Shown here: positions 13,791-41,263 of the stretch, in pieces
Position numbering within the stretch: position 1 is the stretch's first letter
How the letters are laid out: every line of letters starts with the position of its first letter
NCBI RefSeq assembly: GCF_030254645.1
Contig: NZ_CP116346.1
Span: forward strand, 4,381,001-4,445,000
DNA: 64,000 nucleotides
Source: Paucibacter sediminis
Lineage (GTDB): Bacteria > Pseudomonadota > Gammaproteobacteria > Burkholderiales > Burkholderiaceae_C
Direction of reading: 5' to 3'
Program-made: the position numbers and the translations under genes
The notes under the pieces: model-generated
Database searches by the model: none
What the model saw: the letters and a program-made list of their open reading frames with translations, nothing else
Told to the model about the DNA's origin: nothing

Positions 13791-13803
13791 GTCCTGACTC
13801 CCA

Positions 13804-14877: not shown

Positions 14878-14881
14878 GCCT

Positions 14882-15754: not shown

Positions 15755-16629
15755 GCGCCCTCCCGCGCCCGCGCACGGCTGCGCGCATAGAGCAGCGGCG
15801 CCACCAGCACCACCACGGTGAGCAGCAGCACGATGGCGCCGGCCGAGGCCAGCGCGATATTGGCGCGGCCGAACAGATGGTCCATGATGAACTTGGCCGG
15901 CACGTCGCTGGCGGTGCCGGGGCCGCCCTGGGTCATCGCCACCACCGCGTCGAACACCTTCACCACCGCGGTGGACAGCAGCACGAAAACGGTGGCCAGC
16001 GTCGGCGCCAGCATCGGCAGCACGATGCTCAGGTAGACGCGCCAGGCCGGGATGCCGTCCATGCGGGCGGCCTTCCAGATGTCCTCGTCGATGCCGCGCA
16101 GCCCGGCCAGCAGCATCGCCATCACCAGACCCGCGGCCTGCCAGACGCTGGCGATCACCACCGTGTAGATGACCTTGTCCTGGTCGATGATCCAGTCGAA
16201 GGTGAAGTCGCTCCAGCCCAGCTGCTGCAGCGCCGGCTGCAGGCCCGCGCCGGGGTTGAGCACCCATTGCCAGACCAGGCCGGTGGCGACGAAGCTCATC
16301 GCATAGGGGTAGAGAAAGGCGGTGCGCAGCAGGCCCTCGCCGCGCACCTTCTGGTCGATGAAGACCGCCAGCGCAAAGCCGATCACCATGCAGGCCAGCA
16401 TGAACAGCAGGCCGTAGACCGCCAGATTGCCCAGCGACTGCAGCCAGCGCTCGTTCTCGAACAGGCGCTGGTACTGGGCCAGGCCGACGAAGTCATCGCG
16501 CGGAAAGGTGCGCGAGCTGCTCAGCGAGACGCGCAGCGTCCACAGCGTCGTGCCCAGATAGGCCAGCAGCACGGTCAGCGCCATCGGCAGCAGCGCCAGC
16601 CAGGCCATGCCCCAGCGGCGCCGCTTCAT
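15751..16629 (-). CDS. ABC sugar transporter permease, MalF type
   Basis: 292-aa CUT1 permease. It starts MKRRRWGMAWLALLPMALTV, carries DFVGLAQYQRLFENERW in the periplasmic loop and the EAA-type loop GIDEDIWKAARMDG. Stop and start overlap both neighbours by 4 bp. It is clearly paralogous to the permease at 28267-29142 (shared DQKVRGEGLLRT/DQKIRLEGLLRT and LNPGAGL/LNPGLGL). Confidence 0.92.
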   Translation of the reverse strand: MKRRRWGMAWLALLPMALTVLLAYLGTTLWTLRVSLSSSRTFPRDDFVGLAQYQRLFENERWLQSLGNLAVYGLLFMLACMVIGFALAVFIDQKVRGEGLLRTAFLYPYAMSFVATGLVWQWVLNPGAGLQPALQQLGWSDFTFDWIIDQDKVIYTVVIASVWQAAGLVMAMLLAGLRGIDEDIWKAARMDGIPAWRVYLSIVLPMLAPTLATVFVLLSTAVVKVFDAVVAMTQGGPGTASDVPAKFIMDHLFGRANIALASAGAIVLLLTVVVLVAPLLYARSRARAREGA

Positions 16630-17879
16630 CCGCCCTCCCGCAGCGCCGCCAGGATGTCCTTCTGCACCTTCTCGACCGGAATGTTGCGGTTCCAGTAGGC
16701 CGTCAGCACATCGCTCAGCGCGCCGTTCTGGTCGGGGCTCAGATAGACCTCACCATTGCCGAGCTGGCGGCTCTTGTCCTTCATGATGGCCAGGCCCTGC
16801 TGGGCGCAGGCGTCGAGCTTGCTGGCATCGACATCGGTGCGGATCGGGATCGAGCCCTTGCGCTGGCTGAAGGCCACCTGCGCGGCCGGCGCGGTGATCA
16901 CGCTGGCCAGCAGCTGCTGGGCCTTCAGCGCATCGGGCTTGTCGGTCTTGGGGAAGACGAACACATCGCCCTGGATGATGTAGGGCGAGGCAGGGCCGAA
17001 GCCGGCGATGCAGCCATAGTCACGCCCGGGCTCCTGCCGCGCCAGCGCGAACTCGCCCTTGGCCCAGTCGCCCATGAACTGCACGCCCGCCTTGCCGCTG
17101 ATCAGCATCGCGGTGGCGTCGTTCCAGTTGCGCCCCGGCGAGCCCTTGTCCACATAGCCCTGCAGGCGCTTGAAGCTCAGCAGCACCTGCTTGAAGGGCT
17201 CGCCCAGGATGGCCTTGGGGTCGCGGTCGCGCAGCACCTTGAGGTAGAGCTCGCGCCCGCCCTGGTTGGCCAGCACCGCGGTGAAGACGATGTTGTCCTG
17301 CCAGGTCTGGCCGCCATGGGCCAGCGGCACCAGGCCCGCCGCGCGGAGCTTGTCGAGCGCGGCGAACAGCTCGTCCATGCTGCGCGGGTCGGCGGCAATG
17401 CCGGCCTTCTTGAACGCCGCCTTGGAGGTCCAGATCCAGGCGGGCATGTGGATGTCCACCGGCGCGGCGTAGTAATGGCCCTTGACGCGGATCACATTGA
17501 GCACGGTCTCGGGCAGGAACTTGTCCCAGCCGTCGCGCTGCGCCACCGCGTCGACGTTGTTGAGCAGGCCCTGCTCCACCACGTCGAGGAACTGCTTGGA
17601 GGTGTTGAACTGGGCCGCGGTGGGCGGGTTGCCGCCGACGATGCGGTTGATCGCCACCGCGCGCGCCTGCTCGCCCAGCGCGATCGCGGTGTCCACCCAG
17701 GTGCCGCCGGCGGCACGGTAGGCGTCCGCCAGGGTCTTGACCGCGGCCGACTCTCCGCCGGCCGTCCACCAGTGGATCACCTCGGCCTTCAGGGGTGCCG
17801 GCTGCGCCCGGCTGGCGCCGGGCAGCGTCAGCGCCAGCGCGGCGGCCATGGTGGTGATCAGCATGCGGGATGGGGTCAT
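16626..17879 (-). CDS. ABC sugar-binding protein (GtsA-like)
   Basis: 417-aa periplasmic family 1 solute-binding protein with a signal peptide (MTPSRMLITTMAAALALTL, cleavage near SRAQP). The mature start EVIHWWTAGGESAAVKTL, then LAHGGQTWQDNIVF and GKAGVQFMGDWAKGEF, match glucose/oligosaccharide-binding proteins of the Pseudomonas GtsA kind. ATG 17879 is the start; the longer frame would overlap the GH1 gene. Given the GH1, GH3 and GH30 neighbours, beta-gluco-oligosaccharides or glucose are likely ligands (inference). Confidence 0.9.
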   Translation of the reverse strand: MTPSRMLITTMAAALALTLPGASRAQPAPLKAEVIHWWTAGGESAAVKTLADAYRAAGGTWVDTAIALGEQARAVAINRIVGGNPPTAAQFNTSKQFLDVVEQGLLNNVDAVAQRDGWDKFLPETVLNVIRVKGHYYAAPVDIHMPAWIWTSKAAFKKAGIAADPRSMDELFAALDKLRAAGLVPLAHGGQTWQDNIVFTAVLANQGGRELYLKVLRDRDPKAILGEPFKQVLLSFKRLQGYVDKGSPGRNWNDATAMLISGKAGVQFMGDWAKGEFALARQEPGRDYGCIAGFGPASPYIIQGDVFVFPKTDKPDALKAQQLLASVITAPAAQVAFSQRKGSIPIRTDVDASKLDACAQQGLAIMKDKSRQLGNGEVYLSPDQNGALSDVLTAYWNRNIPVEKVQKDILAALREGG

Positions 17880-17895
17880 GTCTTGCCTTCGCATC

Positions 17896-19241
17896 TCAGG
17901 ACTTGAGAAAGTCACGGTACCAGAGGCCGCTGGCCTTGAGCGTGCGGCGCTGCGTCGGGTAATCCACATAGGTGAGGCCGAAGCGGCGCAGATAGCCCTC
18001 GGCCCATTCGAAGTTGTCGAGCAGGCTCCAGGCGAAATAGCCCTGCAGCGGCACGCCCTGGGCGCGCGCCTGCCAGGCCGCCTCGAGATGGCGCGCAAGA
18101 TAGCGGCGGCGTTCGATGTCGAGCACGCTGCCGTCGGGCAGCGGCTGGTCCTCGTAGGTGGAGCCGTTCTCGGTCAGATAGACGCGCGAGGGGCCGTAGT
18201 CGCGCTGGATGCGGTTCAGCAGCGTCACCATGCCCTCGGGCGAGACCTGCCAGCCAAAGGCGGTGCGTTCCACGCCGGCCGGCTCCACCACGCGCGTGGC
18301 GATCGGGCCGCTGCCGGGCGCGTCCTCCACCACCTCGGGGAAGTAGTAGTTCACGCCCAGGAAGTCGGTGGGCGTGGCGATCGCCGCCAGGTCGCCGTCC
18401 AGCACCTGGGGCGCCTGCGCGCCCAGCAGGGCCCAGATGTCCGAAGGGTAGCCGCGGCCATGCAGGGGGTCGAGGAACCAGCGGTTGCGCGAGCCGTCGT
18501 GGCGCAGGTGCGCGGCGGCGTCGGCGGCGCTGTGGCTGGCGGCTTCGATCGGGTGCAGGCTGAGCGTGATGCCGGCCTGGGCGCCGGGCGCGTTGCGGCG
18601 TATCACCGGCAGGGCCAGGCCATGCGAGAGCAGCAGGTGGTGGCAGACCTGCAGCGCGGCTGCGTAGTCGCGGATGCCCGGCGCATGGTTGCCCTCGTGG
18701 TGGCCCAGAAAGGCGCTGCACCAGGGCTCGTTGTGGGTGATCCAGTGCTTGACGCGATCGCCCAGCGCGCGCGTCACGAGCTCGGTGTATTCGAGAAAAG
18801 CGTCCACGCAGGCACGCTGCTGCCAGCCGCCCTGCTCCTGCAGGGCCTGGGGCAGATCCCAGTGGTAGAGCGTGGCCCAGGGCTGCAGGCCGCGCTCCAG
18901 CATGCCGTCCACCAGACGTGAATAGAAGTCCAGCCCACGCTGGTTCACCGCGCCGCGGCCCTGCGGCAGGACGCGCGGCCAGGCAATCGAGAAGCGGTAG
19001 GCATTCACGCCCAGGCTGCGCGCCAGGTCCAGGTCCTCGGGCCAGCGGTGGTAATGGTCGCAGGCCACCGCGCCGCTGGAGCCGTCGCGGATATGGCCCG
19101 CGCCGGCACAGAAGCGGTCCCAGATCGATTCGCCGCGGCCGTCCTCCGTGGCCGCGCCTTCGATCTGGTAGGAGGAGGTGGAGCAACCCCAGACGAAATC
19201 GGCCGGGAAGTCGCTGCGACGGATGTGGGGCAAGGAGTCTG

Positions 19242-19245
<4 letters not shown>
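17896..19245 (-). CDS. GH1 beta-glucosidase
   Basis: 449-aa family 1 beta-glucosidase without a signal peptide, so probably cytoplasmic and acting on imported cellobiose or other beta-glucosides. The acid/base is Glu173 in THNEPW, the nucleophile Glu359 in LTENG. The N-terminal signature FVWGCSTSSYQIEGA and NAYRFSIAWPRVLPQG are clear. ATG 19245 overlaps the GH3 stop (ATGA), consistent with one operon. Confidence 0.94.
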
Positions 19246-21785
<2,540 letters not shown>

Positions 21786-21786
21786 C

Positions 21787-24552
21787 TTAGAACTTGTAGT
21801 TCACGCCCAGCAGGTACTGGCGGCCGTACTTCTCGTAGGTGCCCGGGTAGAGCAGATTGGGCACGGTGCCGCTGTTGTCCGACACCGTCATCATGGTGCG
21901 GTAGGCCTCGTTGGTGACGTTGTTGACCTGGAACAGCACCGACACCCCCTTCAGCGGCCCGCTGTCCCAGCCATAACCCAGCTGCAGATCGGTGATGTGC
22001 TCGGGTTCGATGGTGGTGTAGGAGGTATCGCCCCAGGCATTGCGCACCGCCGCCATATAGCGCGAGCGATAGCGCTGCGCCACACGCGCCTGCAGGCCGC
22101 TCTTCTCGTAGTAAAGCACCCAGCTCGCCACCGTGCCCGAGAGGCCCTCGAGCGGATTGCTGAGGTCGTTGTTCTGGTGGATGCTGCTCTTGGTGAAGGA
22201 GGCCGACAGGATCGCGCCGAAGCCGTCCAGCATGGGGCTGAGCTTGGCGCCGTCGATGGCGGCGCTGAACTCGGTGCCGCGCACATAGCCGCCATCGCCG
22301 TTGGCCATGGCGTTGAGCTTGCCGGTGTAGGTCAGGATCGGGTAGCGCGGATCGCCCTTGAGCGGGTCGGGATAGCCCGAGAAGTCATAGCCCAGGATGT
22401 CCTGCTTGTAGACGGTGGACTTCAGCTCCTTGTAGAAGCCGGCCAGCGAGATGTAGCTGCGCTTGCCGTAGTACTTCTCCAGCGCCAGGTCCACCGCGTC
22501 GGCGCGCCAGGGGTCCAGCGTGGGGTTGCCGCCGCTGGCCGACCATTCGCCCTTGCCGGTGGTGGCACGGCTGATGTTGGTGACGCCGGCGCGCATGTCT
22601 TCCATGTTCGGGCGCGCCAGCACGCGGGCGGCGCCGAAGCGCAGCATGGTGTTGCTGCCCAGATCGGCCGCCAGGTTCAGGCTGGGCAGCACATCGGTAT
22701 AGCTCTTGCCGCCGCTCACCGGCTGGGTGCTGTTGTCAATCCAGGCCAGGCCATGACCCTCCTGCTTGGCATGCACGACCTGCAGGCCGATATTGCCGCG
22801 CACCGGCACGCCGGCATTGAACTCGAGGCTGAACTTGCCAAACGCGGTGCTGACCTTCTCGCGCACGCCCCACTCGCGATTGGGCGCGCTGCTGAGGTCG
22901 TCGGCGCGCGCGCTGAACAGGCCGGTGTCCAGCAGCGCCTGCACGTCGAAGTTGGCCACCGCGGGAATGCTGCCGAAGCCCAGCGTGGCCGGCGCCATCA
23001 GGATGCCGTTCGGAAAGGCCAGATTGGTCTTGCCGGTCTTGAGGTCGTAGGCCTCCTTGACGGCGCGATAGTCCTTGCTGCGCTCGCTGTAGTTGAAGCC
23101 GCCCTCGAACTGGTGCACCGCGCCCCAGTCGAGCTCGCGCTTGGCCGAGAGGCGCAGGCTCTTGAGTTCATCGCTGACCTTGAAGTGGCGCGCCGCGCCC
23201 ATCTGGCCCCAGAACTGCTGCAAGCTCATCACCGCCGGATCGGCCCAGTTGATGCTGGGCACGAACTGCGAGAAGCCGGTCATCGAGATGGCCGTGCTGG
23301 TGAAGCCCGAGGGCAGGCTGGAGCCCGCATACATCTCGGCGGTGGTCTCGTCGCGGTCGGCCTTGGAGTAGCTCAGGTCGGCCACGGTGGTCCAGCCGCC
23401 CAGCTTGAGCTCGTTGTTCAGGCCGATCGCCTTGATGGTGTCGTCGCGCTGGTTGCGGCGCGAGAGCAGCTTGCCGGCGATGTTGTCGATCGCGCCCCCC
23501 ACCGTGACCTTCTCGCCGCCGAAGTTCTCGTAGCTGGTGCCGTGGTAGGTGACGCCGTTCCAGGTGTTCATCTCGCCCTGGAACTCGCGCCCGACAAACT
23601 TCTTGCTGAAGTTGGAGTAGTACAGATCCAGCACGGTGTGCAGCTGGTCGTTGGGCTTGTACTCGAACACGCCCATCAGGCCGTTGCGCACCTGGTTGGT
23701 GGAGAAGGCGGTGGCCTCGAAACCCTGCAGCGAGACGGCGTCGCGGTCCACACCCTTGAGGCCGCAGTCGCCGCCACACCAGTCGGGCGGGTAGGACTTG
23801 GTGTTGGCGGTATTGGCCCACCACCAGTTGGCGTAATGCTGCTGCTGCTCGGGGCTGTCCAAGTGCGCATAGCCCAGCGCGACGCCGATGGTGCGATCGG
23901 CAAACTGGTCCACATAGCTGGCGCTCAGGCGCTTGCCCTGGCTGCTCAGGCCGGGGATCTGCTCGCCGTTGGAGTTCTTCTCCATGCGCGCATTCAGGTT
24001 GCCCTGGCGGCCGCGGAAGTTCAGCGGCCGGATCGACTGCATATTGACCGTGCCCGACAGGCCTTGCGCACCCAGCGCCGCGTCGGGGGTCTTGTAGACG
24101 GTGGCGCCCCCCATCAGCTCGGCGGGAAACTGGTCGAACTCGACCGAGCGGTCCGAGCCCGAGCTGACCATCTCGCGGCCGTTCAGCAGGGTCACGCCGT
24201 ACTTGGGCGACATGCCGCGGATCGACAGCACCTGCGCATTGCCGTTCACGCGCTGGGCCGCCAGGCCCGGCAGGCGCGCCAGCGATTCGGCAATGCTCAG
24301 ATCGGGCAGCTTGCCCAGGTCCTCGGCGGTGACCGCTTCGACGATCGAATCGGCATTGCGCTTGACCGAGATCGAGCTCTCGATGGCCGAGCGTATGCCC
24401 GTCACCACCACCGTCTCCAGTTGCTGCGGGGCCTGCTGCGCATGCGCCGCCCCCATCAACAGCACCGCGCCCGCGCAGGCCGCGGCGATCGGGAGGACTT
24501 GCGGAGGGGTGGCGCAGCGGCGCTGGGCCGGCTGCTTGGCGTGGGTCTTCAT
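21787..24552 (-). CDS. TonB-dependent receptor (Caulobacter-type, carbohydrate)
   Basis: 921-aa outer-membrane receptor of the TIGR01782 type. It has a signal peptide, a TonB box-like ETVVVTGIRSAIESS, a plug domain (SIAESLARLPGLAAQRV, LSIRGMSPKYGVTLLNGREM) and a 22-strand-type barrel ending in YLLGVNYKF with terminal Phe. The start ATG 24552 has AGGAGA upstream and is preferred over a start 30 bp earlier. As first gene of the leftward operon with GH3, GH1, ABC and GH30 genes, it probably imports beta-gluco-oligosaccharides. The upstream region holds paired GTTAA boxes. Confidence 0.93.
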   Translation of the reverse strand: MKTHAKQPAQRRCATPPQVLPIAAACAGAVLLMGAAHAQQAPQQLETVVVTGIRSAIESSISVKRNADSIVEAVTAEDLGKLPDLSIAESLARLPGLAAQRVNGNAQVLSIRGMSPKYGVTLLNGREMVSSGSDRSVEFDQFPAELMGGATVYKTPDAALGAQGLSGTVNMQSIRPLNFRGRQGNLNARMEKNSNGEQIPGLSSQGKRLSASYVDQFADRTIGVALGYAHLDSPEQQQHYANWWWANTANTKSYPPDWCGGDCGLKGVDRDAVSLQGFEATAFSTNQVRNGLMGVFEYKPNDQLHTVLDLYYSNFSKKFVGREFQGEMNTWNGVTYHGTSYENFGGEKVTVGGAIDNIAGKLLSRRNQRDDTIKAIGLNNELKLGGWTTVADLSYSKADRDETTAEMYAGSSLPSGFTSTAISMTGFSQFVPSINWADPAVMSLQQFWGQMGAARHFKVSDELKSLRLSAKRELDWGAVHQFEGGFNYSERSKDYRAVKEAYDLKTGKTNLAFPNGILMAPATLGFGSIPAVANFDVQALLDTGLFSARADDLSSAPNREWGVREKVSTAFGKFSLEFNAGVPVRGNIGLQVVHAKQEGHGLAWIDNSTQPVSGGKSYTDVLPSLNLAADLGSNTMLRFGAARVLARPNMEDMRAGVTNISRATTGKGEWSASGGNPTLDPWRADAVDLALEKYYGKRSYISLAGFYKELKSTVYKQDILGYDFSGYPDPLKGDPRYPILTYTGKLNAMANGDGGYVRGTEFSAAIDGAKLSPMLDGFGAILSASFTKSSIHQNNDLSNPLEGLSGTVASWVLYYEKSGLQARVAQRYRSRYMAAVRNAWGDTSYTTIEPEHITDLQLGYGWDSGPLKGVSVLFQVNNVTNEAYRTMMTVSDNSGTVPNLLYPGTYEKYGRQYLLGVNYKF

Positions 24553-24619
24553 GGACTGTCTCCTGTGGCTCGTTTTGAACAAGGCTCTGGGTCAGTGCGG
24601 CCGGGCTACACTGGATCGT

Positions 24620-24688
24620 GTTAACTGTCGTTAAGGTTCGGTGCTGTCAATTCTTAATGAATCCATAACGCTGTTAATAGAACGTTAA
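24620..24688. promoter_or_regulatory. GTTAA half-site pairs between receptor and response-regulator genes
   Basis: GTTAA occurs at 24620-24624, 24630-24634, 24673-24677 and 24684-24688, in the 187-bp divergent region. The second pair has an 11-bp period (GTTAATAGAACGTTAA), the geometry of PmrA/QseB-subfamily sites; the first has a 10-bp period. The same 11-bp pair recurs at 26912-26927. The regulator at 24740 is the obvious candidate binder. Confidence 0.55.
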
Positions 24689-24739
24689 CCCTTAGAGTGC
24701 GGTTTGCGCCACAGGCCACGATTGCCCATGCCCTCACAA

Positions 24740-25417
24740 ATGAACCTGCTGCTCGCCGAAGACGATGCCATCCTGGCCGATGCACTCTCGGCCCAGTTGC
24801 GCCGTGCCGGCTTTGTGGTGGAGCACGCACCCAATGGCGCGGTGGCCGAGTACCTGCTGCTGAAGCAGAACTTCAACGTCGCCATCCTCGACCTCGGCCT
24901 GCCCATGGTGGACGGGCTGACGGTGCTGAAGCGGCTGCGTGCGGCGCGCCGCCAGCTGCCGGTGCTGGTGCTGACCGCGCTGGACAGCCTGGACGACCGC
25001 GTGGCTGGGCTGAACGCTGGCGCCGACGACTACCTGACCAAGCCCTTCGACTTCCCCGAGCTGGAGGCGCGCCTGCATGCGCTGATGCGGCGCGGCCGCC
25101 CGCCCACCGCCAGCGCCGCGCTGGGTGACCTGGTGTTCGACCGCGACACGCGCCGCGCCTCGGTGCGCGGCGAGCCGCTGGAGCTGAGCCCGCGCGAGGC
25201 GATGCTGCTGGATCTGCTGCTGTCACAGCGCGACCATGTCGTCACCAAGGAGCAGATCACCCAGGCCTGGGCGCAGGACGGCTCGGACAACAGCGGCACC
25301 GGCTCGATCGAGGTCTATATCCATCGCCTGCGCCGCAAGCTTGAGCAGTCCGGCCTGGCGATACGCACGGTGCGCGGCCTGGGTTACCTGCTCGAGAACG
25401 AGGCCGCCGCGGCATGA
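24740..25417 (+). CDS. OmpR-family response regulator (QseB/TctD-like)
   Basis: 225-aa two-component regulator. The receiver has the acidic pair Asp8-Asp9, phospho-acceptor Asp51 in AILDLGLPMVDG, the switch Thr in VLTA and Lys in DDYLTKPF. A winged-helix domain follows (about 125-222; DNSGTGSIEVYIHRLRRKL and IRTVRGLGYLLE). ATG 24740 (MNLLLAEDD) gives the usual start; ATG 24728 adds four residues, and neither has a strong ribosome-binding site. It overlaps the sensor kinase gene by 4 bp. It likely controls both flanking sugar operons and itself. Confidence 0.92.
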   Translation: MNLLLAEDDAILADALSAQLRRAGFVVEHAPNGAVAEYLLLKQNFNVAILDLGLPMVDGLTVLKRLRAARRQLPVLVLTALDSLDDRVAGLNAGADDYLTKPFDFPELEARLHALMRRGRPPTASAALGDLVFDRDTRRASVRGEPLELSPREAMLLDLLLSQRDHVVTKEQITQAWAQDGSDNSGTGSIEVYIHRLRRKLEQSGLAIRTVRGLGYLLENEAAAA

Positions 25418-26895
25418 ACCATCCGGCCGGCCGCCGCCCGCATTGGTTCACGGCCGTGCCGGGGGCGCGCTCGCTGCATCGGCAGCTGTTCGTGTGGCTG
25501 CTGCTGCCGCAGATCATCCTGTGGCTGGCGGCCGCGCTGTTCACCTACAACCTGGCGGCGCGCTATGCCAATGCCGCCATCGATGCCAGCCTCTCGCAGG
25601 CCTCGCGCGCGCTGGCCCGCCAGGTCAAGCCCCAGGGCAACGGCCTGCTGATCGATTTCCCGCGCGCCGCCCAGGACATCCTCGAGGCCGACCCCAGCGA
25701 CCGCGTGCTCTACACCGTCAGCACCCCGCCCGGCCAGTTCATCCTCGGCAACCAGAACCTGCCACCGGTGCCGGCGCTCGCCGCGCCGGCGCTGGGCGAG
25801 CCCTACTTCTACGATGGCGTGCTGCGCGAGCCCGGCAGCGACGGCGAGCCGGCGCGCAGCGCCCGCGTGCGCATGGTGGCGCTCTACCTCAACTATGGCG
25901 AGGACGGCGGCACGCCGCAGACCATGCTGGTGCAGGTGGCGCGCTCCAGCGCCAACCGCGAGGAGCTGGCGCGCCAGATCCTGCTCGACACGGTGCTGCC
26001 GCTCTCCGGCCTGATCGTGCTGATGACCATGATCGTCTGGGCCGGCATCCGCGCCGGCCTGGCGCCGCTGGCCCTGCTGCAGCGCCAGGTGGAGGGGCGC
26101 GCCGCCAACGATCTGGCCCCCATCAAGCTGGACGCCGCACCGCCCGAGGTGCGCTCGCTGGCGCAGGCCATCAACACCTTGCTGGGCGAGGTCAGCCACA
26201 ACGTGGTGGCACAGAAGCGCTTCATCTCCGACGCGGCCCACCAGCTGCGCACGCCGCTGGCCGGCCTCAAGAGCCAGGCCGAGCTGGCGCTGCGCGACGT
26301 CAGCGATCCGCTGCTGACCGCGCGGCTCAAGCTGGTGCACGAGGGCGCAGCGCGCAGCGCCCATCTGGTGAACCAACTGCTGACGCTGGCGCGCGCCGAG
26401 CCCGAATCGGCGGTGCGCCAGGACCGCGTGCCGGTGGACATGCTGAAGCTGGCGCGCGAGGTCACCGCCGAGCTGGTGCCCAAGGCCCTGCATGCCGGCA
26501 TAGACCTGGGTTTTGACGAGCCCGATCCCGAGGGTGCGAGCGCGCCCATGCCGGTGCTGGGCATCGCCCTGCTGCTGCGCGAGGCGCTCGCCAACCTGAT
26601 CGACAACGCGATCCGCTATGCCGGCCGCGGCGCCAGCGTGACGGTGCGCTGCCATGGCAGCGCCGGCCAGCTGGTGCTGGAGGTGGAAGACAACGGCCCC
26701 GGCATCGCGCCCGAGGAGCTCGAGCATGTGTTCGAGCGCTTCGTGCGCGCCACCCACGACGGCAGCGGCTGCGGCCTCGGCCTGGCGATCGTGCGCGAGA
26801 TCGTCGAGCGCCATGCCGGCAGCGTCAGCCTGAGCCCGACCCAGCCCCATGGCCTGCTGGCGCGGGTGCGCCTGCCACTGGCAAGCAAGGGTTAG
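25414..26895 (+). CDS. sensor histidine kinase (TctE/QseC-like)
   Basis: 493-aa inner-membrane kinase. A first membrane segment lies near 25-46, a periplasmic region of about 140 residues of the 2CSK_N type follows, and a second membrane segment is near 190-212. The phospho-acceptor is His276 in FISDAAHQLRTPLAGLKSQ. N-box NLIDNAIRYA, G1 VEDNGPGI and G2 GSGCGLGLAI complete the ATP domain. The TctE family often senses small carboxylates or sugars; here the context points to a carbohydrate-derived signal (inference). Confidence 0.93.
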   Translation: MNHPAGRRPHWFTAVPGARSLHRQLFVWLLLPQIILWLAAALFTYNLAARYANAAIDASLSQASRALARQVKPQGNGLLIDFPRAAQDILEADPSDRVLYTVSTPPGQFILGNQNLPPVPALAAPALGEPYFYDGVLREPGSDGEPARSARVRMVALYLNYGEDGGTPQTMLVQVARSSANREELARQILLDTVLPLSGLIVLMTMIVWAGIRAGLAPLALLQRQVEGRAANDLAPIKLDAAPPEVRSLAQAINTLLGEVSHNVVAQKRFISDAAHQLRTPLAGLKSQAELALRDVSDPLLTARLKLVHEGAARSAHLVNQLLTLARAEPESAVRQDRVPVDMLKLAREVTAELVPKALHAGIDLGFDEPDPEGASAPMPVLGIALLLREALANLIDNAIRYAGRGASVTVRCHGSAGQLVLEVEDNGPGIAPEELEHVFERFVRATHDGSGCGLGLAIVREIVERHAGSVSLSPTQPHGLLARVRLPLASKG

Positions 26896-26911
26896 TACTT
26901 TCTCGCCAAGC

Positions 26912-26927
26912 GTTAATGTTTCGTTAA
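26912..26927. promoter_or_regulatory. GTTAA pair upstream of the second ABC operon
   Basis: GTTAATGTTTCGTTAA, with an 11-bp period, lies 48 bp upstream of the binding-protein start and 16 bp after the kinase stop. It matches the geometry of the pair at 24673-24688, so the same regulator probably binds both. Confidence 0.55.
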
Positions 26928-26974
26928 ACTTGCCGGACCGAGCCCACGACGGGCCGTACCGGAGACAAGACGAC

Positions 26975-28255
26975 ATGACGCATCCGCGCGCCCCGGGCCG
27001 CCGCCCCATCGCTGCCATGGCCCCGCTGCTCACGGCCCTAAGCCTGAGCCTGGCGGCCCAACTGGCCACCGCTGGCGAGGTCGAGGTGCTGCACTGGTGG
27101 ACCAGCGGTGGCGAGGCCAAGGCCGCGCAGGCGCTCAAGGCCAGCCTGCAGGCCAAGGGCCACAGCTGGAAGGATTTCGCGGTGGCGGGCGGCGGGGGCG
27201 ACTCCGCCATGACGGTGCTGAAGTCGCGCGTGGTCTCGGGCAATGCGCCCGCCGCGGCGCAGATCAAGGGCCCCTCGATCCAGGACTGGGCCCGCGAGGG
27301 CGTGCTGGCCTCGATCGACGAGGTGGCGCGCGCCGACAAATGGGACGAGCTGCTGCCCAAGGTGGTGAGCGAGCAGATGAAATACCGCGGCAGCTATGTC
27401 GCGGTGCCGGTGAACGTGCACCGCGTCAACTGGCTCTGGATCAATGCCGATGTCTTCAAGCGCGCCGGGCTCAAGCCGCCGCTCAGCTGGGACGATTTCT
27501 TCAGCGCCGCCGACGCGCTCAAGAAGCTGGGCATCACGCCACTGGCGCATGGGGGCCAGAACTGGCAAGACCTGACCCTGTTCGAGGCGGTGGTGCTGGG
27601 CGTGGGCGGCGCCGATTTCTACGCCAAGGCGCTGGTGCAGCTGGACCAGAGCAGCCTGACGAGCGACACCATGGAGCGCGCGCTCGCCACCTTCAAGCGC
27701 CTCAAGCCCTATACCGACAAGAACGCCCCGGGGCGCGACTGGAACCTTGCCACCGCGATGGTGATCAAGGGCGAGGCGGCGATGCAGATCATGGGCGACT
27801 GGGCCAAGGGCGAGTTCGTCGCGGCCGGCAAGCAGCCGGGCAAGGATTTCCTCTGCGTGGCCGCGCCCGGCAGCGCCAAATCCTTCAGCTACAACATCGA
27901 CTCCTTCGCGATGTTCAAGCTCAAGAACGAGGCCAACAGCCGCGCGCAGAAGGACCTCGCCGCAGCCATCATGGCGCCCGAGTTCCAGGAGCTCTTCAAC
28001 CTCAACAAGGGCTCGATCCCGGCGCGCCTGGGCATGAAGATGGACCGCTTCGACGACTGCGCCAAGACCTCGGCGCAGGACTTCGCCAGCAGCGCCAAGG
28101 CCGGCTCCCTGCTGCCCTCGATCGCCCATGGCATGGCGGTGCCGAGCGCGGCCGAGGGCGCCATCAAGGACGCCATCAGCCAGTACTGGAACAGCGACCG
28201 GCTGAGCGCCCGCGATGCCATGAAGAAGCTCGCCGCAGCCGCCCGCAGCAAGTAA
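26975..28255 (+). CDS. ABC sugar-binding protein (GtsA-like), second copy
   Basis: 426-aa periplasmic solute-binding protein with a signal peptide ending near LATAGE. The mature protein begins EVEVLHWWTSGGEAKAAQAL and carries LAHGGQNWQDLTLFEAVVLG and AAMQIMGDWAKGEF, the pattern of GtsA-type glucose/mannose-binding proteins. It is paralogous to the protein at 16626-17879. ATG 26975 is chosen because earlier in-frame starts lie within the kinase gene. First gene of the rightward operon, preceded by a GTTAA pair. Confidence 0.92.
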   Translation: MTHPRAPGRRPIAAMAPLLTALSLSLAAQLATAGEVEVLHWWTSGGEAKAAQALKASLQAKGHSWKDFAVAGGGGDSAMTVLKSRVVSGNAPAAAQIKGPSIQDWAREGVLASIDEVARADKWDELLPKVVSEQMKYRGSYVAVPVNVHRVNWLWINADVFKRAGLKPPLSWDDFFSAADALKKLGITPLAHGGQNWQDLTLFEAVVLGVGGADFYAKALVQLDQSSLTSDTMERALATFKRLKPYTDKNAPGRDWNLATAMVIKGEAAMQIMGDWAKGEFVAAGKQPGKDFLCVAAPGSAKSFSYNIDSFAMFKLKNEANSRAQKDLAAAIMAPEFQELFNLNKGSIPARLGMKMDRFDDCAKTSAQDFASSAKAGSLLPSIAHGMAVPSAAEGAIKDAISQYWNSDRLSARDAMKKLAAAARSK

Positions 28256-28266
28256 GCCCAGCCGCC

Positions 28267-29142
28267 ATGCCAAGCCGCGCCCGCACCCTGTGGTTGCCCA
28301 AGCTGGTGATTGCGCCTTCCTTCGTGCTCTCGCTGCTGTTCATCTATGGCCTGATGGCCTGGAACGGGGTGCTCTCGCTGTCGGCCTCGCGCATGCTGCC
28401 CAACTACGAGTTCGTCGGGCTGGCGCAGTACGAGGCGCTGTTCGAGTCGGAGCGCTGGTGGGTGGCGCTGCGCAATCTGGGCATCTTCGGCGGCCTGTTC
28501 GTGGGCGGCGGCATGGCGCTGGGCCTGCTGCTGGCGATCCTGCTGGACCAGAAGATCCGCCTGGAGGGCCTGCTGCGCACCATCTACCTCTACCCGATGG
28601 CGCTCAGCTTCATCGTCACCGGCACGGCCTGGAAATGGATACTCAATCCGGGCCTGGGCCTGGAGCATCTGGTGCAGGAATGGGGCTTCGCCGACTTCAG
28701 CTTCGGCTGGCTGGTGGACCCCGACATGGCGATCTACTGCGTCGTCATCGCCGGCATCTGGCAGAGCGCGGGCTTCGTGATGGCGCTGTTTCTGGCCGGC
28801 CTGCGCGGCATCGACGACAGCATCATCAAGGCCGCCCAGGTGGACGGCGCCAGCCTGCCTCGCATCTACTGGCGCATCATCATCCCCAGCCTGCGGCCGG
28901 TGTTCTTCTCCACCCTGATGGTGGTGAGCCATCTGGCGATCAAGAGCTTCGACCTGGTGATGGCGCTCACCGCCGGCGGCCCCGGCTATGCCACCGACCT
29001 GCCCGCCACCTTCATGTACACGATGGCCTTCTCGCGCGGCCAGATCGGCCTGGGCGCGGCCAGCGCCACCATCATGCTGGCCACCGTGGCGGCCATCGTC
29101 GTGCCCTACCTCTACTCCGAGCTGCGTGGGACGCGTCGATGA
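28267..29142 (+). CDS. ABC sugar transporter permease, MalF type, second copy
   Basis: 291-aa CUT1 permease with six predicted membrane segments. It has NYEFVGLAQYEALFESERWW and the EAA-type loop GIDDSIIKAAQVDGASL. It starts 11 bp after the binding-protein gene and overlaps the next permease. Confidence 0.92.
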   Translation: MPSRARTLWLPKLVIAPSFVLSLLFIYGLMAWNGVLSLSASRMLPNYEFVGLAQYEALFESERWWVALRNLGIFGGLFVGGGMALGLLLAILLDQKIRLEGLLRTIYLYPMALSFIVTGTAWKWILNPGLGLEHLVQEWGFADFSFGWLVDPDMAIYCVVIAGIWQSAGFVMALFLAGLRGIDDSIIKAAQVDGASLPRIYWRIIIPSLRPVFFSTLMVVSHLAIKSFDLVMALTAGGPGYATDLPATFMYTMAFSRGQIGLGAASATIMLATVAAIVVPYLYSELRGTRR

Positions 29143-30002
29143 TGGCTCGGCCGCGCCTTTCGCCCGCCCGCCTGCTGCTGCTGGGCGCTTTGCTGTTGTT
29201 CGCGCTGTTCTTCCTGGCGCCGCTCTACGTGATGCTGAGCGCCTCGCTGAAGAGCATGGACGAGATCCGCAACACCAGCCTGCTGGCCCTGCCCGCCAGC
29301 CCCAGCCTGCAGGCCTGGGCCACCGCCTGGTCGGCGGCCTGTACCGGCACCGACTGCGGCGGGCTCAAGCCCTTCTTCCTCAACTCGCTGCTGATGGTGC
29401 TGCCCGCCGTCGGCATCTCCACCTCACTGGGCGCGCTGAACGGCTATGTGCTGAGCAAGTGGCGCTTCCGCGGCAGCGAGCTGCTGTTCGCGCTGATGCT
29501 GTTCGGCGTCTTCATGCCCATGCAGGTGGTGCTGCTGCCGATGAGCCAGGTGCTGGGCTGGCTGGGCCTGGCCAGCTCGGTATGGGGGCTGATCCTGGTG
29601 CATGTGCTGGCCGGCATCCCCTCCACCACGCTGTTCTTCCGCAACTACTACGCCGGCCTGCCCGACGAGCTGATCAAGGCTGCCACCCTGGACGGGGCCT
29701 CGTTCTGGCAGATCTTCCGCCGCATCGTGCTGCCGCTCTCCGCGCCCATCCTGGTGGTGACGCTGATCTGGCAGTTCACCAATATCTGGAACGACTTCCT
29801 CTACGGCGTGGTGTTCTCGGGTGCCGACAGCAAGCCCATCACCGTGGGGCTCAACAACCTGGCCAACACCTCGAGTTCGGTGAAGGAATACAACGTCGAC
29901 ATGGCCGCCGCCATGATCGCCGGCCTGCCCACCCTGCTCGTCTACGCGCTGGCCGGCAAGTATTTTGTGCGCGGGCTCACCGCCGGCGCCGTGAAGGGAT
30001 AG
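29139..30002 (+). CDS. ABC sugar transporter permease, MalG type, second copy
   Basis: 287-aa CUT1 permease. The EAA loop is NYYAGLPDELIKAATLDGAS and the tail KYFVRGLTAGAVKG matches the first copy. Two adjacent ATG codons (29139 and 29142) are possible; the first overlaps the upstream stop. Confidence 0.92.
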   Translation: MMARPRLSPARLLLLGALLLFALFFLAPLYVMLSASLKSMDEIRNTSLLALPASPSLQAWATAWSAACTGTDCGGLKPFFLNSLLMVLPAVGISTSLGALNGYVLSKWRFRGSELLFALMLFGVFMPMQVVLLPMSQVLGWLGLASSVWGLILVHVLAGIPSTTLFFRNYYAGLPDELIKAATLDGASFWQIFRRIVLPLSAPILVVTLIWQFTNIWNDFLYGVVFSGADSKPITVGLNNLANTSSSVKEYNVDMAAAMIAGLPTLLVYALAGKYFVRGLTAGAVKG

Positions 30003-30008
30003 GCAGCA

Positions 30009-31088
<1,080 letters not shown>

Positions 31089-32933: not shown

Positions 32934-33782
32934 ATGCGATTGCTGCCCATCCTCGCCCTGCTCACGGCCATGCTCGCATCCCTGCCCGCCTGGGCCGGGC
33001 CGCCGCTCAATGTGGCCAGCTACAACCTGCGCCTCAACACCCCCGACGACGGCCCCAATGTCTGGGCCCAGCGCGTCGAGGCGGTGAAGGCGCTGATCCG
33101 CTACCACGAGTTCGATCTGTTCGGCACCCAGGAGGGCCAGCCCGAGCAGATCCGCGACCTGGAGGCGCTGAGCGAGTTCGAGCATGTGGGCGTGGGCCGC
33201 GACGATGGCCGGGACGCCGGCGAGCATTCCAGCATCTTCTACCGGCGCGCGCGCTTCCAGCGCCTTGCGCATGGCGACTTCTGGCTCAGCGAGACCCCCG
33301 ACCGCCCCTCCAAGGGCTGGGATGCGCGCTGCTGCAACCGCCTCGCCAGCTGGGTACGGCTGCAGGAGCGCCGCGGCGGGCAGCGCCTGCTGGTGGTGTC
33401 GGTGCATTTCGACCACGAGGGGCCGATCGCGCGCCGCGAATCCGCCCAGCTGCTGCTGCGCTGGCTGGCCGAGCAGCGGCGCCAACACCCCGGCGACCAT
33501 GTGATCGCGCTGGGCGACTTCAACTCGACGCCGGACACGGTGCAGATCCAGGCCATGCGCGGCCAGCTGCGCGATGCCCGCCTGGTCTCGCTGACGCCGC
33601 CCTATGGCCCGCCGGCCAGCTTCAATGATTTCAAGTTCGGCAGCGCGCCGGAGCTGCTGATCGACTACATCTTCCTCAGCCCGCGCATCCGCGTGCTCAA
33701 GTACGCGGTGCTGACCGACTCCAACGGCCAGCGCTACCCCTCCGACCATTTCCCGGTGCTGGCGCGCCTGCAGCTTGACTAG
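32934..33782 (+). CDS. exported endonuclease/exonuclease/phosphatase-family protein
   Basis: 282-aa protein with signal peptide MRLLPILALLTAMLASLPAWA. The EEP fold is shown by VASYNLRL, LFGTQEGQPEQI, VVSVHFDHEG, VIALGDFNSTPD and YPSDHFPVLARL, which together hold the metal-binding and catalytic Asn, Glu, His and Asp residues. Secreted members linked to glycan loci may be phosphodiesterases of unknown substrate. Its stop overlaps the convergent SGNH gene by 4 bp. Confidence 0.87.
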   Translation: MRLLPILALLTAMLASLPAWAGPPLNVASYNLRLNTPDDGPNVWAQRVEAVKALIRYHEFDLFGTQEGQPEQIRDLEALSEFEHVGVGRDDGRDAGEHSSIFYRRARFQRLAHGDFWLSETPDRPSKGWDARCCNRLASWVRLQERRGGQRLLVVSVHFDHEGPIARRESAQLLLRWLAEQRRQHPGDHVIALGDFNSTPDTVQIQAMRGQLRDARLVSLTPPYGPPASFNDFKFGSAPELLIDYIFLSPRIRVLKYAVLTDSNGQRYPSDHFPVLARLQLD

Positions 33783-34486
33783 GGCTTCAGCGCCGCCTCG
33801 ATCTCGCGCTCCAGCAGGGGCGCCATGACGCGGTAGCCGGCGGCATTGGGGTGCACGCCGTCCTCGGAGTACTTGAGCGGCAGGCCGCCCCGTTCATCGG
33901 CAAGGGCGGCGTGGTAATCGACCCAGCGGTGGCCGCCCTCGCGCGCCAGTTCGCGCAGGCGCTGGTTCAGCGCGACGATGGTGGCCGCCGGCTGGACGGC
34001 CGGGTTCCAGTAATAGGCCGCCGCGGGCAACACCGCGCACAGCACCACGCGGATGCCATGGGCCCGCGCCAGCTGCGTCATCGAGCGCACATGGCCGGCG
34101 ATCATCTCGACCGAGCTGGGCCCGCTGTTGCCGGCGATGTCATTGGTGCCGGCCAGTATCACCACCGCGGCCGGCTGCAGCTCGATCACGTCCTGCCGGA
34201 AGCGCAGCAGCATCTGCGGCGTGGTCTGGGCGCTGATGCCCCGGTTCACATAGGGCTTGCCGGGGAAGGCCTGGGCCAGCGCCGGGCTCCAGAACTCGGT
34301 GATCGAGTCGCCCATGAAGACCACGCGGCGCTCGCCGCTGGCGGGCGCCGGCAGGCTCGCATTGGCGGCGCGGTAGCGCCCATGGCCGGCCCAGTCGCCC
34401 GCGGCGGGCTGGGCCGACGCCAGCGCCCAGCCTCCCAGCAGAAGATGGGCGGCGAGAAGCTTGAGGCCGAGTCGGCGTGCGTGCAT
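33779..34486 (-). CDS. exported SGNH/GDSL hydrolase
   Basis: 235-aa SGNH esterase-like protein with a signal peptide ending ALASAQ. Block I is VVFMGDSITEFW (catalytic Ser), block II Gly in NRGISAQTT, block III VILAGTNDI (Asn) and block V DGVHPNAAGY (Asp and His). Next to GH20 and GlcNAc-PTS genes it may deacetylate or de-esterify amino-sugar oligomers (inference). It lies 15 bp downstream of the GH20 gene in the same leftward operon. Confidence 0.88.
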   Translation of the reverse strand: MHARRLGLKLLAAHLLLGGWALASAQPAAGDWAGHGRYRAANASLPAPASGERRVVFMGDSITEFWSPALAQAFPGKPYVNRGISAQTTPQMLLRFRQDVIELQPAAVVILAGTNDIAGNSGPSSVEMIAGHVRSMTQLARAHGIRVVLCAVLPAAAYYWNPAVQPAATIVALNQRLRELAREGGHRWVDYHAALADERGGLPLKYSEDGVHPNAAGYRVMAPLLEREIEAALKP

Positions 34487-34501
34487 GAGAGTGATCCTTG
34501 C

Positions 34502-36994
34502 TCAGGGGTTGTCGATCCATGAAGGCCGGCCGGCGCGACCGTTGCGGTCGAAGGCGGCCACGCCGATGCGCCCGCGCGCCGTGATCGGCCCCTGCACCAG
34601 CGGGCTGTCGGGCCGCGGCGGGCTGCCGTCGCTGGTGTAGCGCAGCGTCATGCCGGGCAGCTGGGCGCGCGCCAGCACGCGATCGCCCTGCCTCAGCAGG
34701 CCGGGCGGCGCGATGCGGTAATGCAGCGCCGGCGCCTCGGCATCCAGGCGCGGCAGCAGCTGGCTGCCAAGCTGCTGCATGAACTGGGCGCGCGCCCGCG
34801 CCTGGGCGGCCGGGTCGGGCAGGCGCTCCCAGCCGGGCTCGGCGGCCCAGGCGCGCTCGGCCAGGCCCAGCAGGCGTGGCATCAGCATCTGGGCCAGGCG
34901 CTCGGGGCCGCGCACGGTCTCGGAGAACAGCGTGGCCTCCAGCCCGATGAGGTGGCGGCGGCCTTCGGCACTCAGGCCCTGGCGGCCCGGCATGCGCGTG
35001 GGCATGAAGTCGAACACCTGGTCGAGGTCCAGAAAGGCCGCCCAGTCGTGGCCGGGCTCGGTCGGGTCCTTCTGATGCGCCATGTCGAAGTAAAGCCGGG
35101 TGGCCGGCGCCAGCACGGTGGCATAGCCCGCGTTGGCGAGCCGGTAGGCGAGGTCCGCGTTGGCGCCGGTGTTGTTCCAGACATGCAGGCGGATGTCGCG
35201 CCCCAGGAAATGCGCATTTGGCGCCAGCCCGGGCTCACCCGCCAGCATGGCCTTGCGTGCGCCCAGCTCCTCCCAGCCCGCCGCCGCGATGCCCTGACGC
35301 CGCAGCAGGGCCTGCACGCGGTCGAAGAAGTGATCCCAGAGCGCCTCGGTATCGCTGGCCCCCAGCTGCTTGAGCAGGGCCTGGCAGGCGGGCGATTGTT
35401 CCCAGGCGCCCGCCGGCAGTTCGTCGCCGCCGACATGCAGGCGCCGCAGCGGCATGCCGGCCTCGGCGTGCATGGCCTTGAGCGCGCCCACCACCTGCTC
35501 GACAAAGGCGTAGGTGGAGGGCAGCGCCGGGTTCATCACATGGTCGGTGTAAAGCTGGGCCGAGCGATAGACCGAGCGGTCGCCCGGCTCGCTCAGGAGG
35601 AACTCGTCCGCGCCGGCGGCACCGCTGCGCAGGCGGCGTTGCCAGCGACTTTCCATCGCCTTCACCGCGGCGCGCGCATGCGCCGGCATGTCGATCTCGG
35701 GGATCACCTCGATCTGCAGCGCCGCCGCATGGCGCAGGATCTCCAGATAGTCGGCGCGGCTGTAATGGCCGCTGCCATAGGGGTCGGCCAGATCCGGCCC
35801 GGAGCCATAGGCGGGCGGCAGATGCGCGAGCGGATCGGCCTGCTGGCCGCGGCGCCCGCCCACCTCGGTGAGCTCGGGCAGGCCAGGGATCTCGAGCCGC
35901 CAGCCTTCGTCGTCGCTGAGGTGCAGGTGCAGGGTGTTGAGCTTGTAGCGCGCCATCAGGTCCAAGGTCGACAGCAGCGTGGCCTTGCTCTGGAAATTGC
36001 GCGCCACGTCCAGCATCAGGCCGCGGTAGGCGTAGCGCGGCGCGTCGACGATGTGCAGCGCCGGCAGGTCCACGCCCTGCCGCGCCAGCACCGCCGTGGG
36101 CAGCGGCAGCAGCATGCGCAGGCTCTGCAGCCCGCGCGCCAGCCCGGCCGGGCTGGCCGCCCGGAGGCGCACGCCCTGGCGCGCGCCGATGCTCAGCGCA
36201 TAGGCCTCGGGCGAGCGCAGGCCGGCCACCGGCCCCAGGCTCAGTTGCACGGCGGGCTGGCCACGCCGCACCTGGCCGCTCGGGAACAGCGGGCGCAGCC
36301 AGGACTGCAGTTGCTCGGCCTGCGCCGCCAGCGCGGGCGCGGCGCGTACCTCGGGCAAGCCGTCCCAGTGCAGGGTGCCGGCCAGCCTGCGGTATTGCAG
36401 CGGCGTCGGCAACAGCGGCGGCAGCTCGGCCGGCACTGTGGCCTGGGCATAGCGCTGGTAGAGCGATTGCGGCGTCGCCAGCGGCAGAGCAGCGCCGGGC
36501 GGCAGCTCGGTCTGCTCGGGGCGGCTGGGCGGCAGCAACTGGTAGTCGCGGATCGCCAGGCCGCGCCCGGGCGCCTCGTCCAGCACCAGATAGGGCGCTT
36601 GCGGTGCCTTGTCCGGCATCAGCACCAGCTCCGGATGGAGCAGCACGATGCGCAGGGTCTGGCCGCTGTCCAGCGGCTGGAAACCTGCCGCGGGGCGCAG
36701 GCGGAACAGCGTGGCGACGACGCGCTCCAGCAAGACCTGACCCTCCAGCGCCGGGCCCAGCTCGACGCCGGCCATGGCGCTGAAATAGATGGACCAGCCC
36801 TGCGCCGGCAGGGGCCGGCGGTCCAGATTGGTGAGCGTGAACAGCGCGCGCGAGCGGCCTTCGGGATGCTCGGCCGAGAACTGGCTGCGCTCCAGCTCCC
36901 AGCGCAGGCGCAGCGGCGCGCCCTCGCCTGACGGCCCTGCACTCGCGCCCGAAAGCAGCAAGCCCAGCAGCAAGCTCGCCAGCAGCGCCCTCAT
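34502..36994 (-). CDS. GH20 beta-N-acetylhexosaminidase, exported
   Basis: 830-aa chitobiase-type enzyme. A signal peptide is followed by an N-terminal carbohydrate-binding beta-sandwich (about 25-165), a GH20b domain (about 190-315), the catalytic barrel (about 318-690; YRGLMLDVARNFQS, HLHLSDDEGWRLEI) and a short C-terminal beta domain. The catalytic pair is Asp524-Glu525 in LHVGGDELP, the substrate-assisted mechanism typical of GH20. It releases GlcNAc from chitin oligomers, which NagE/NagF would then import. It overlaps nagE by 4 bp. Confidence 0.94.
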   Translation of the reverse strand: MRALLASLLLGLLLSGASAGPSGEGAPLRLRWELERSQFSAEHPEGRSRALFTLTNLDRRPLPAQGWSIYFSAMAGVELGPALEGQVLLERVVATLFRLRPAAGFQPLDSGQTLRIVLLHPELVLMPDKAPQAPYLVLDEAPGRGLAIRDYQLLPPSRPEQTELPPGAALPLATPQSLYQRYAQATVPAELPPLLPTPLQYRRLAGTLHWDGLPEVRAAPALAAQAEQLQSWLRPLFPSGQVRRGQPAVQLSLGPVAGLRSPEAYALSIGARQGVRLRAASPAGLARGLQSLRMLLPLPTAVLARQGVDLPALHIVDAPRYAYRGLMLDVARNFQSKATLLSTLDLMARYKLNTLHLHLSDDEGWRLEIPGLPELTEVGGRRGQQADPLAHLPPAYGSGPDLADPYGSGHYSRADYLEILRHAAALQIEVIPEIDMPAHARAAVKAMESRWQRRLRSGAAGADEFLLSEPGDRSVYRSAQLYTDHVMNPALPSTYAFVEQVVGALKAMHAEAGMPLRRLHVGGDELPAGAWEQSPACQALLKQLGASDTEALWDHFFDRVQALLRRQGIAAAGWEELGARKAMLAGEPGLAPNAHFLGRDIRLHVWNNTGANADLAYRLANAGYATVLAPATRLYFDMAHQKDPTEPGHDWAAFLDLDQVFDFMPTRMPGRQGLSAEGRRHLIGLEATLFSETVRGPERLAQMLMPRLLGLAERAWAAEPGWERLPDPAAQARARAQFMQQLGSQLLPRLDAEAPALHYRIAPPGLLRQGDRVLARAQLPGMTLRYTSDGSPPRPDSPLVQGPITARGRIGVAAFDRNGRAGRPSWIDNP

Positions 36995-38697: not shown

Positions 38698-38722
38698 GCT
38701 GAAGTTCCTCGGGCTTGCTTGA

Positions 38723-41263
<2,541 letters not shown>

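Follow-up and report, generated by a model that had tools for sequence, protein, structure and literature searches.

Several two-component systems (TCSs) with described operators or targets can be compared with the one studied here, which lies between two sugar-uptake operons in a stretch of 64,000 nucleotides from Paucibacter sediminis (contig NZ_CP116346.1, positions 4,381,001 to 4,445,000; hereafter the window, with positions counted from its first letter). PmrA recognizes the consensus (C/T)TTAA(G/T)-N5-(C/T)TTAA(G/T) (PMC10729948), and five of its residues (T187, N188, H193, H195 and K153) are named as contacting bases (PMC3973317). For QseB the printed consensus is G(C/T)(G/A)ACAAT(A/T)A-N4-TT (PMC10729948). 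The targets of TctD are its own gene and opdH-tctCBA (PMC4513871). In Pseudomonas aeruginosa, GtrS-GltR drives gltBFGK-oprB, and GltB is needed for activation of the kinase (PMC7927077); the GltR operator is reported as tgGTTTTTc or GTNACAAA (PMC4081096, PMC7927077).

The TCS of the window is accompanied by two direct repeats of the form TTAA-N7-TTAA, box A and box B. Like the PmrA box they have a TTAA core, an 11-bp period and half-sites arranged head to tail (PMC3973317, PMC10729948), but the letter before TTAA is mostly G or A and less often C or T. The QseB consensus, as printed, is unlike either box, and a QseB-type box was therefore rejected; the reported GltR operators also differ from the boxes. 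We consider it probable that the boxes, whatever the sign of their action, serve a local circuit that acts on both neighbouring operons. The best reading would be a local, private switch for sugar uptake.

Boxes in the window and in the genome

Box A (GTTAAT-AGAAC-GTTAA, GTTAATAGAACGTTAA, 24673-24688, + strand) lies between the gene of a TonB-dependent receptor and that of the response regulator. Box B (GTTAAT-GTTTC-GTTAA, GTTAATGTTTCGTTAA, 26912-26927, + strand) lies in the gap between the kinase gene and the gene of a sugar-binding protein (SBP), 47 nt 5' of the SBP start. In both the start-to-start period is 11 bp.

A first-pass annotation, made from the window alone, had pointed to these two GTTAA pairs, and the genome bears both of them out. 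In the whole genome (5,324,202 bases, one contig) TTAA-N7-TTAA is found at exactly two places, which are boxes A and B, while the reversed pattern used as a control is found once; for GTTAAN6GTTAA the numbers are two and zero. Both places flank this TCS. Counting in the window alone with up to two mismatches gives 6 matches against a shuffled mean of 3.86, a modest difference that is uninformative as a test of chance. Chance is a very poor account of the two 11-bp GTTAA pairs, which are real; in its main part the earlier observation was right, and it is stronger than the window by itself could reveal.

A third pair had been proposed at 24620-24634 (+ strand, GTTAACTGTCGTTAA). Its period is 10 bp, not 11, and a TTAA pair of 10 bp stands before the regulator in 2 of 79 loci, the window included. 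Given this spacing and poor conservation we judge it to be no site of this regulator. Upstream of box A there is also a degenerate pair of 11 bp (CTTAATGAATCCATAA, 24653-24668, + strand), which together with box A forms an array of TTAA at 0, 11, 20 and 31.

Conservation of the boxes among relatives

Loci were collected by the kinase protein alone, from 399 genomes of the family (best 30 matches) and from a scan of genome contigs (best 80 of 361), so that the test for boxes is independent of how the loci were found. This gave 110 loci, window included, of which 84 remained after 26 near-duplicates were dropped. No regulator was found in one of these (L033), and four of the 83 regions upstream of the regulator were cut short, leaving 79. 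One kinase-SBP gap of length 0 (L104) was kept as a miss.

Where kinase and SBP genes are adjacent, the gap between them contains a TTAA pair of 11 bp in 27 of 29 cases (mean 0.12 and maximum 2 in 200 dinucleotide shuffles). Of 79 regions upstream of the regulator, 35 have the same pair, as do 14 of the 22 regions after the kinase where the SBP lies further off; over the tested regions the shuffles gave means of at most 0.12, with maxima of 1 to 2. Only two of these 22 more distant SBPs have the pair in the 250 bases that precede them. The period is sharply defined: spacings of 10 and 12 are absent from all 29 kinase-SBP gaps and occur in 2 and 0, respectively, of the 79 regions before the regulator, where the TTAA spacings peak at 11, 20 and 31. 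Further, in a blind scan that tried every four-letter word (256) at each spacing from 4 to 25 (5,632 combinations), TTAA at 11 bp ranks first, with 82 of 164 regions against 26 for the best unrelated word.

In total the 84 loci contain 112 boxes, 98 of them close upstream of the regulator or close downstream of the kinase. The other 14 are spread over about 901 kb: ten at 270-550 bp past the kinase, three within 65 bp before an SBP, and one elsewhere. A box anywhere in the fetched locus is found in 54 of 58 loci with an SBP, and in 16 of 26 where no SBP was found.

A second element was noticed by eye in the kinase-SBP gaps of many relatives (for example L026, L029, L042 and L080). It has the form GGGWWAGYCC, often CCTAGGGAAAGTCC, and stands 20-50 bp before box B in most of the listed cases. 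In the window its version is GGTTAGTACT (26890-26899), which overlaps the stop codon of the kinase gene. It may be a further half-site or the site of another factor.

The boxes follow the importer

The boxes had been described as standing before both flanking uptake operons. This holds in the window, and in relatives the boxes recur with the TCS also under other gene orders. Where the order changes, they track the importer. In the seven loci with an SBP divergent from the regulator, boxes are found before the regulator in all seven. Kinase and SBP are separated by another gene in 22 loci; among the six of these that were scanned it is a LamB porin in five and a SASA-type esterase in one. A genome outside the 84 loci (G113) has its SBP about 5 kb from the kinase and on the opposite strand; there is a box at most about 0.15 kb upstream of this SBP.

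Outside the family the picture is different. Among 274 genomes from the class, seven, window included, have the SBP at an E value of 1e-90. For the five importer loci from other families, 6.5-9.5 kb around the importer was fetched; none of the five has a box there, and none has a close homologue of the kinase adjoining the importer; two kinases were found there, without a 2CSK_N domain. In one of these loci (L148, 2686-6366) the order regulator-kinase-SBP is kept. Its regulator is only 35% identical to that of the window, its kinase is EnvZ/CpxA-like with a HAMP domain and without 2CSK_N, and there is no TTAA box. This arrangement resembles the GtrS-GltR system of Pseudomonas. Replacement of one type of TCS by another would be the simplest reading of the difference.

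The regulator and the kinase

The gene at 24740-25417 (+ strand) encodes a TctD-like response regulator of the OmpR/PhoB family, with the Pfam domains Response_reg and Trans_reg_C both over their gathering scores. Operators in this family consist of two direct-repeat half-sites about 11 bp apart; repeats of this form are present and conserved at the TCS and are a candidate operator of the regulator. The next gene (25414-26895, + strand) encodes a sensor histidine kinase with a 2CSK_N domain (PF08521, 120.6 bits, cut-off 23.2), HisKA and HATPase_c. It is of the TctE/QseC type, TctE being a kinase that carries a 2CSK_N domain.

The first-pass annotation assigned the regulator to the PmrA/QseB type, and this stands in part. 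Among the NCBIfam models the nearest is TctD (PRK15479, 211.5 bits, cut-off 337), followed by PmrA (PRK10643, 178.2 bits, cut-off 330) and QseB (160.2 bits, cut-off 345), and the kinase scores 178.9 bits against QseC, under the cut-off of 475. By these scores the regulator is TctD-like but not TctD, and it is below the equivalog cut-offs of PmrA and QseB as well. The QseB operator also differs. What remains of the assignment is the core and spacing of the box, which are PmrA-like. By alignment, the regulator shares the frame of the PmrA recognition helix: of the five base-contacting residues named for PmrA, four were compared, of which T187 and H195 are kept, N188 is changed to G and H193 to Y. 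The regulator thus differs from PmrA at these two positions, and its gene differs in having sugar-uptake genes as neighbours.

The resemblance to TctD-TctE includes the protein families, with the best NCBIfam model for the regulator and a kinase of the 2CSK_N type. Autoregulation together with control of a linked outer-membrane gate and transporter is described for TctD (PMC4513871) and would be predicted here too. The system differs from TctD-TctE in that sugar importers take the place of TctCBA, and in its 211 bits against a cut-off of 337. The neighbours of the TCS are genes for sugar ABC importers, a TonB-dependent receptor and glycoside hydrolases (GHs), with no linked tricarboxylate tctCBA. 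With GtrS-GltR of Pseudomonas the system shares control of a glucose ABC importer, here predicted, and a homologous SBP (PDB 8hqq, E 3e-130). In the literature searched, which for the most part did not include subscription papers, no operator is described for this TCS, which is weak evidence of novelty.

A predicted promoter at box A

On the - strand at 24650-24660 there is a conserved element (ATTCTTAATGA) that had been overlooked. It has a TTAA of its own, 20 bp from that of the pair at 24673. Across 18 loci of the receptor/GH3 type this region follows a pattern of fixed spacing, ATT[C/A]TTAA-N16-TTAAT-N6-TTAACCC, each position of ATT[C/A]TTAA being conserved in 17 to 18 of the 18 at a fixed distance from box A. 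Read on the - strand, box A is followed at this fixed distance by a -10-like AAKAAT, which in the window is AAGAAT at 24655-24650. This is likely the -10 element of the TonB receptor operon; the element at 24650-24660 could instead be an extra half-site.

A promoter scan of 24400-27100 gives a single promoter-like site, TTAACA-16-AAGAAT on the - strand, which matches at 9 of 12 positions (shuffles: mean 0.0, sd 0.2). Its predicted -35, TTAACA, coincides with the second half-site of box A. For the regulator, a putative -10 TACAGT was picked out by eye near the start of the gene, and in relatives its distance is variable. As the spacing is fixed on the receptor side and variable to TACAGT, box A probably serves mainly the receptor operon, and it may serve the regulator gene as well.

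TACAGT near the regulator start was seen in the relatives L036, L038, L042, L051 and L102. In L038 its closeness to an ATG might mean a leaderless mRNA for the regulator.

Extent of the regulon

In this genome there are nine matches to 2CSK_N, the kinase of the window included. The regulators beside the other eight are 38-48% identical to the 24740 regulator. None of these eight has an exact box nearby, since the only two places in the genome are both at this TCS; there is no third exact box in the 5.32 Mb. Allowing one mismatch, 8 + 9 matches are found genome-wide (boxes included) against 11 + 11 for the control, so there is no excess. With no further exact box and no excess of near matches, the predicted regulon in this genome looks local.

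The first-pass annotation had seen in the kinase a master sensor for about 23 kb of glycan genes. Counting the TCS, the two operons for which the boxes could mark the start reach from about 10.8 to 31.1 kb, and in this form, for about 20 kb, the claim is plausible; it rests on operon structure and presumed binding.

For relatives, 20 genomes were chosen from the better kinase matches, and places were counted by hand in the 14 with a full listing of matches. These have 72 exact TTAA-N7-TTAA places, 25 of which are at the TCS, with at least one such place in each genome. In one locus of a Paucibacter-like genome (L151, 4799-4957; G296:C50) three TTAA-N7-TTAA pairs precede the gene of a GH5 cellulase that has a CBM6; the TCS is 20 kb away. 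The regulator may have a true additional target in this array. A search for named relatives on plasmids gave seven records, all below 60% identity, and added no information.

Proposed mechanism and alternatives

In the mechanism that we propose, the 24740 regulator would be phosphorylated by the 2CSK_N kinase, and in this form would bind RTTAAY-N5-RTTAA direct repeats as a head-to-tail dimer. It would do so at box B, upstream of the glucose-type ABC importer, and at box A, between the regulator gene and the divergent operon of TonB-dependent receptor and glycoside hydrolases. At box A the second half-site would at the same time be the TTAACA -35, followed at fixed spacing by the -10 AAGAAT. 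A periplasmic sugar would then act jointly on the hydrolases, the outer-membrane gate and the inner-membrane importer, most likely by switching them on. The sugar might be reported via the binding protein: a role of the SBP in sensing is suggested by analogy with GltB-GtrS-GltR in P. aeruginosa.

A number of observations weigh against this mechanism. The sample consists of the closest relatives only, because the best 30 matches and the best 80 of 361 were taken. An exact box is missing altogether from 14 of the 84 loci, 44 of 79 have no 11-bp pair before the regulator, and two of the 29 adjacent kinase-SBP gaps (L057 and L104) lack it. The sequence of the recognition helix does not separate loci with a box from loci without one. 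In the 14 relatives' genomes, 47 of the 72 exact places are away from the TCS. The promoter scan of 24400-27100 shows nothing after box B. At box A, the distance from box to -10 is 17 nt, against c. 12 nt in class II PhoP promoters, and in the PhoP series 17 nt gave little activity (PMC3335776); the class II spacing of PhoP is not matched. As other letters define the PhoP box, the comparison is a caution only. Given this distance, we regard activation as likely but not settled. Equally, a box that covers a good -35 could be a site of repression, and GltR of P. aeruginosa has been reported both as a repressor and as an activator (PMC4081096, PMC7927077).

Repression is the likeliest of the alternatives, even if we think it unlikely. 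Here the unphosphorylated regulator would cover the -35 of the receptor operon and leave it on phosphorylation. Box A does overlap TTAACA of the 9-of-12 promoter, and a repressor model of P. aeruginosa GltR has come from one group (PMC4081096). PhoP boxes over the -35 activate, however (PMC3335776), and near box B the scan shows no promoter hexamers to repress.

Somewhat less likely still is that binding of the regulator to the boxes affects just its own gene and the glucose-type ABC operon, while the operon of receptor and hydrolases is otherwise controlled and merely shares the intergenic region. The box in the kinase-SBP gap is indeed the best conserved (27/29 against 35/79 before the regulator), and the divergent gene varies among relatives. 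What speaks for control of the receptor side as well is that the fixed spacing in the 18 receptor/GH3-type loci is to ATT[C/A]TTAA on that side, whereas the putative -10 of the regulator, TACAGT, is at variable distance.

We find it improbable that the boxes belong to an unlinked regulator whose targets happen to include sugar importers, an explanation that would account for the boxes in 16 of 26 loci where no SBP was found and for the exact word elsewhere in relatives' genomes; in this genome the exact box is found only at the TCS, and all five importer loci from other families have neither the box nor a close kinase homologue adjoining. That the pairs are just AT-rich promoter sequence matching by chance in a GC-rich genome has next to no probability, for even if the counts in the window alone are unimpressive, it is contradicted by a spacing of sharply 11, by dinucleotide shuffles near zero, by the two-place genome count and by the blind scan.

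The comparison with other families allows a wider scenario, which we put forward tentatively and consider somewhat less probable than its contrary. In Burkholderiales, a TCS of the TctD/2CSK_N type with a private TTAA-N7-TTAA operator may have replaced an unrelated EnvZ/CpxA-like TCS at a homologous glucose importer. In one branch, operator and promoter spacing would have let the operon of TonB-dependent receptor and glycoside hydrolases join in place of the LamB porin, and the glucose-binding protein would be a third sensing component.

This TCS recurs in many named genera of Burkholderiales, and the boxes provide a ready-made candidate operator for it that can be tested. They also suggest a way in which a small local circuit could change its outer-membrane gate between porin and TonB receptor and still keep the regulatory box. 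Finally, two unrelated types of TCS can now be compared on homologous glucose importers.

The flanking operons and their neighbourhood

On the + strand, the SBP gene (26975-28255) is followed by an open reading frame with an ABC permease of the GlcU/UgpE type in its C-terminal half (28290-30002), the first permease being expected in an overlapping frame, and by an ABC ATPase of the MalK/UgpC type (30009-31088). The SBP is very close to two solved sugar-binding proteins, PDB entries 5dvf (E 7e-144) and 8hqq (E 3e-130), and more distant from 2b3b, a 'glucose-binding protein' (E 4e-42). Both 5dvf and 8hqq are glucose-binding proteins of Pseudomonas, 8hqq being that of P. aeruginosa. By these matches, the operon at 26975-31088 is a glucose-type ABC importer. 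When the glucose-contact residues of GltB were matched by number to the PDB alignment the numbering was inconsistent, and no claim is made from them.

The divergent operon on the - strand contains the TonB-dependent receptor, glycoside hydrolases and a second ABC importer. Its first gene is that of the receptor (21787-24552, ATG at 24552), which is of the Xanthomonas-Caulobacter type (Pfam Plug; TIGR01782 586 bits, cut-off 310). The rest of the series (10818-21785, - strand) consists of GH3, GH1, an SBP, a permease, MalK, a protein of the tryptophan-halogenase family and GH30, with open reading frames that abut or overlap. The tryptophan-halogenase family protein (12264-13790, - strand; Pfam E 1e-197) stands in the midst of this sugar-uptake series.

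Next door, a cluster on the - strand (33779-41263) contains a GDSL lipase, a GH20 hexosaminidase, EIIC-EIIB of a phosphotransferase system (PTS) and a fused EIIA-HPr-EI. The genome-wide scan for TTAA-N7-TTAA places no exact box there. The cluster is probably a PTS for N-acetylglucosamine (GlcNAc) or chitin.

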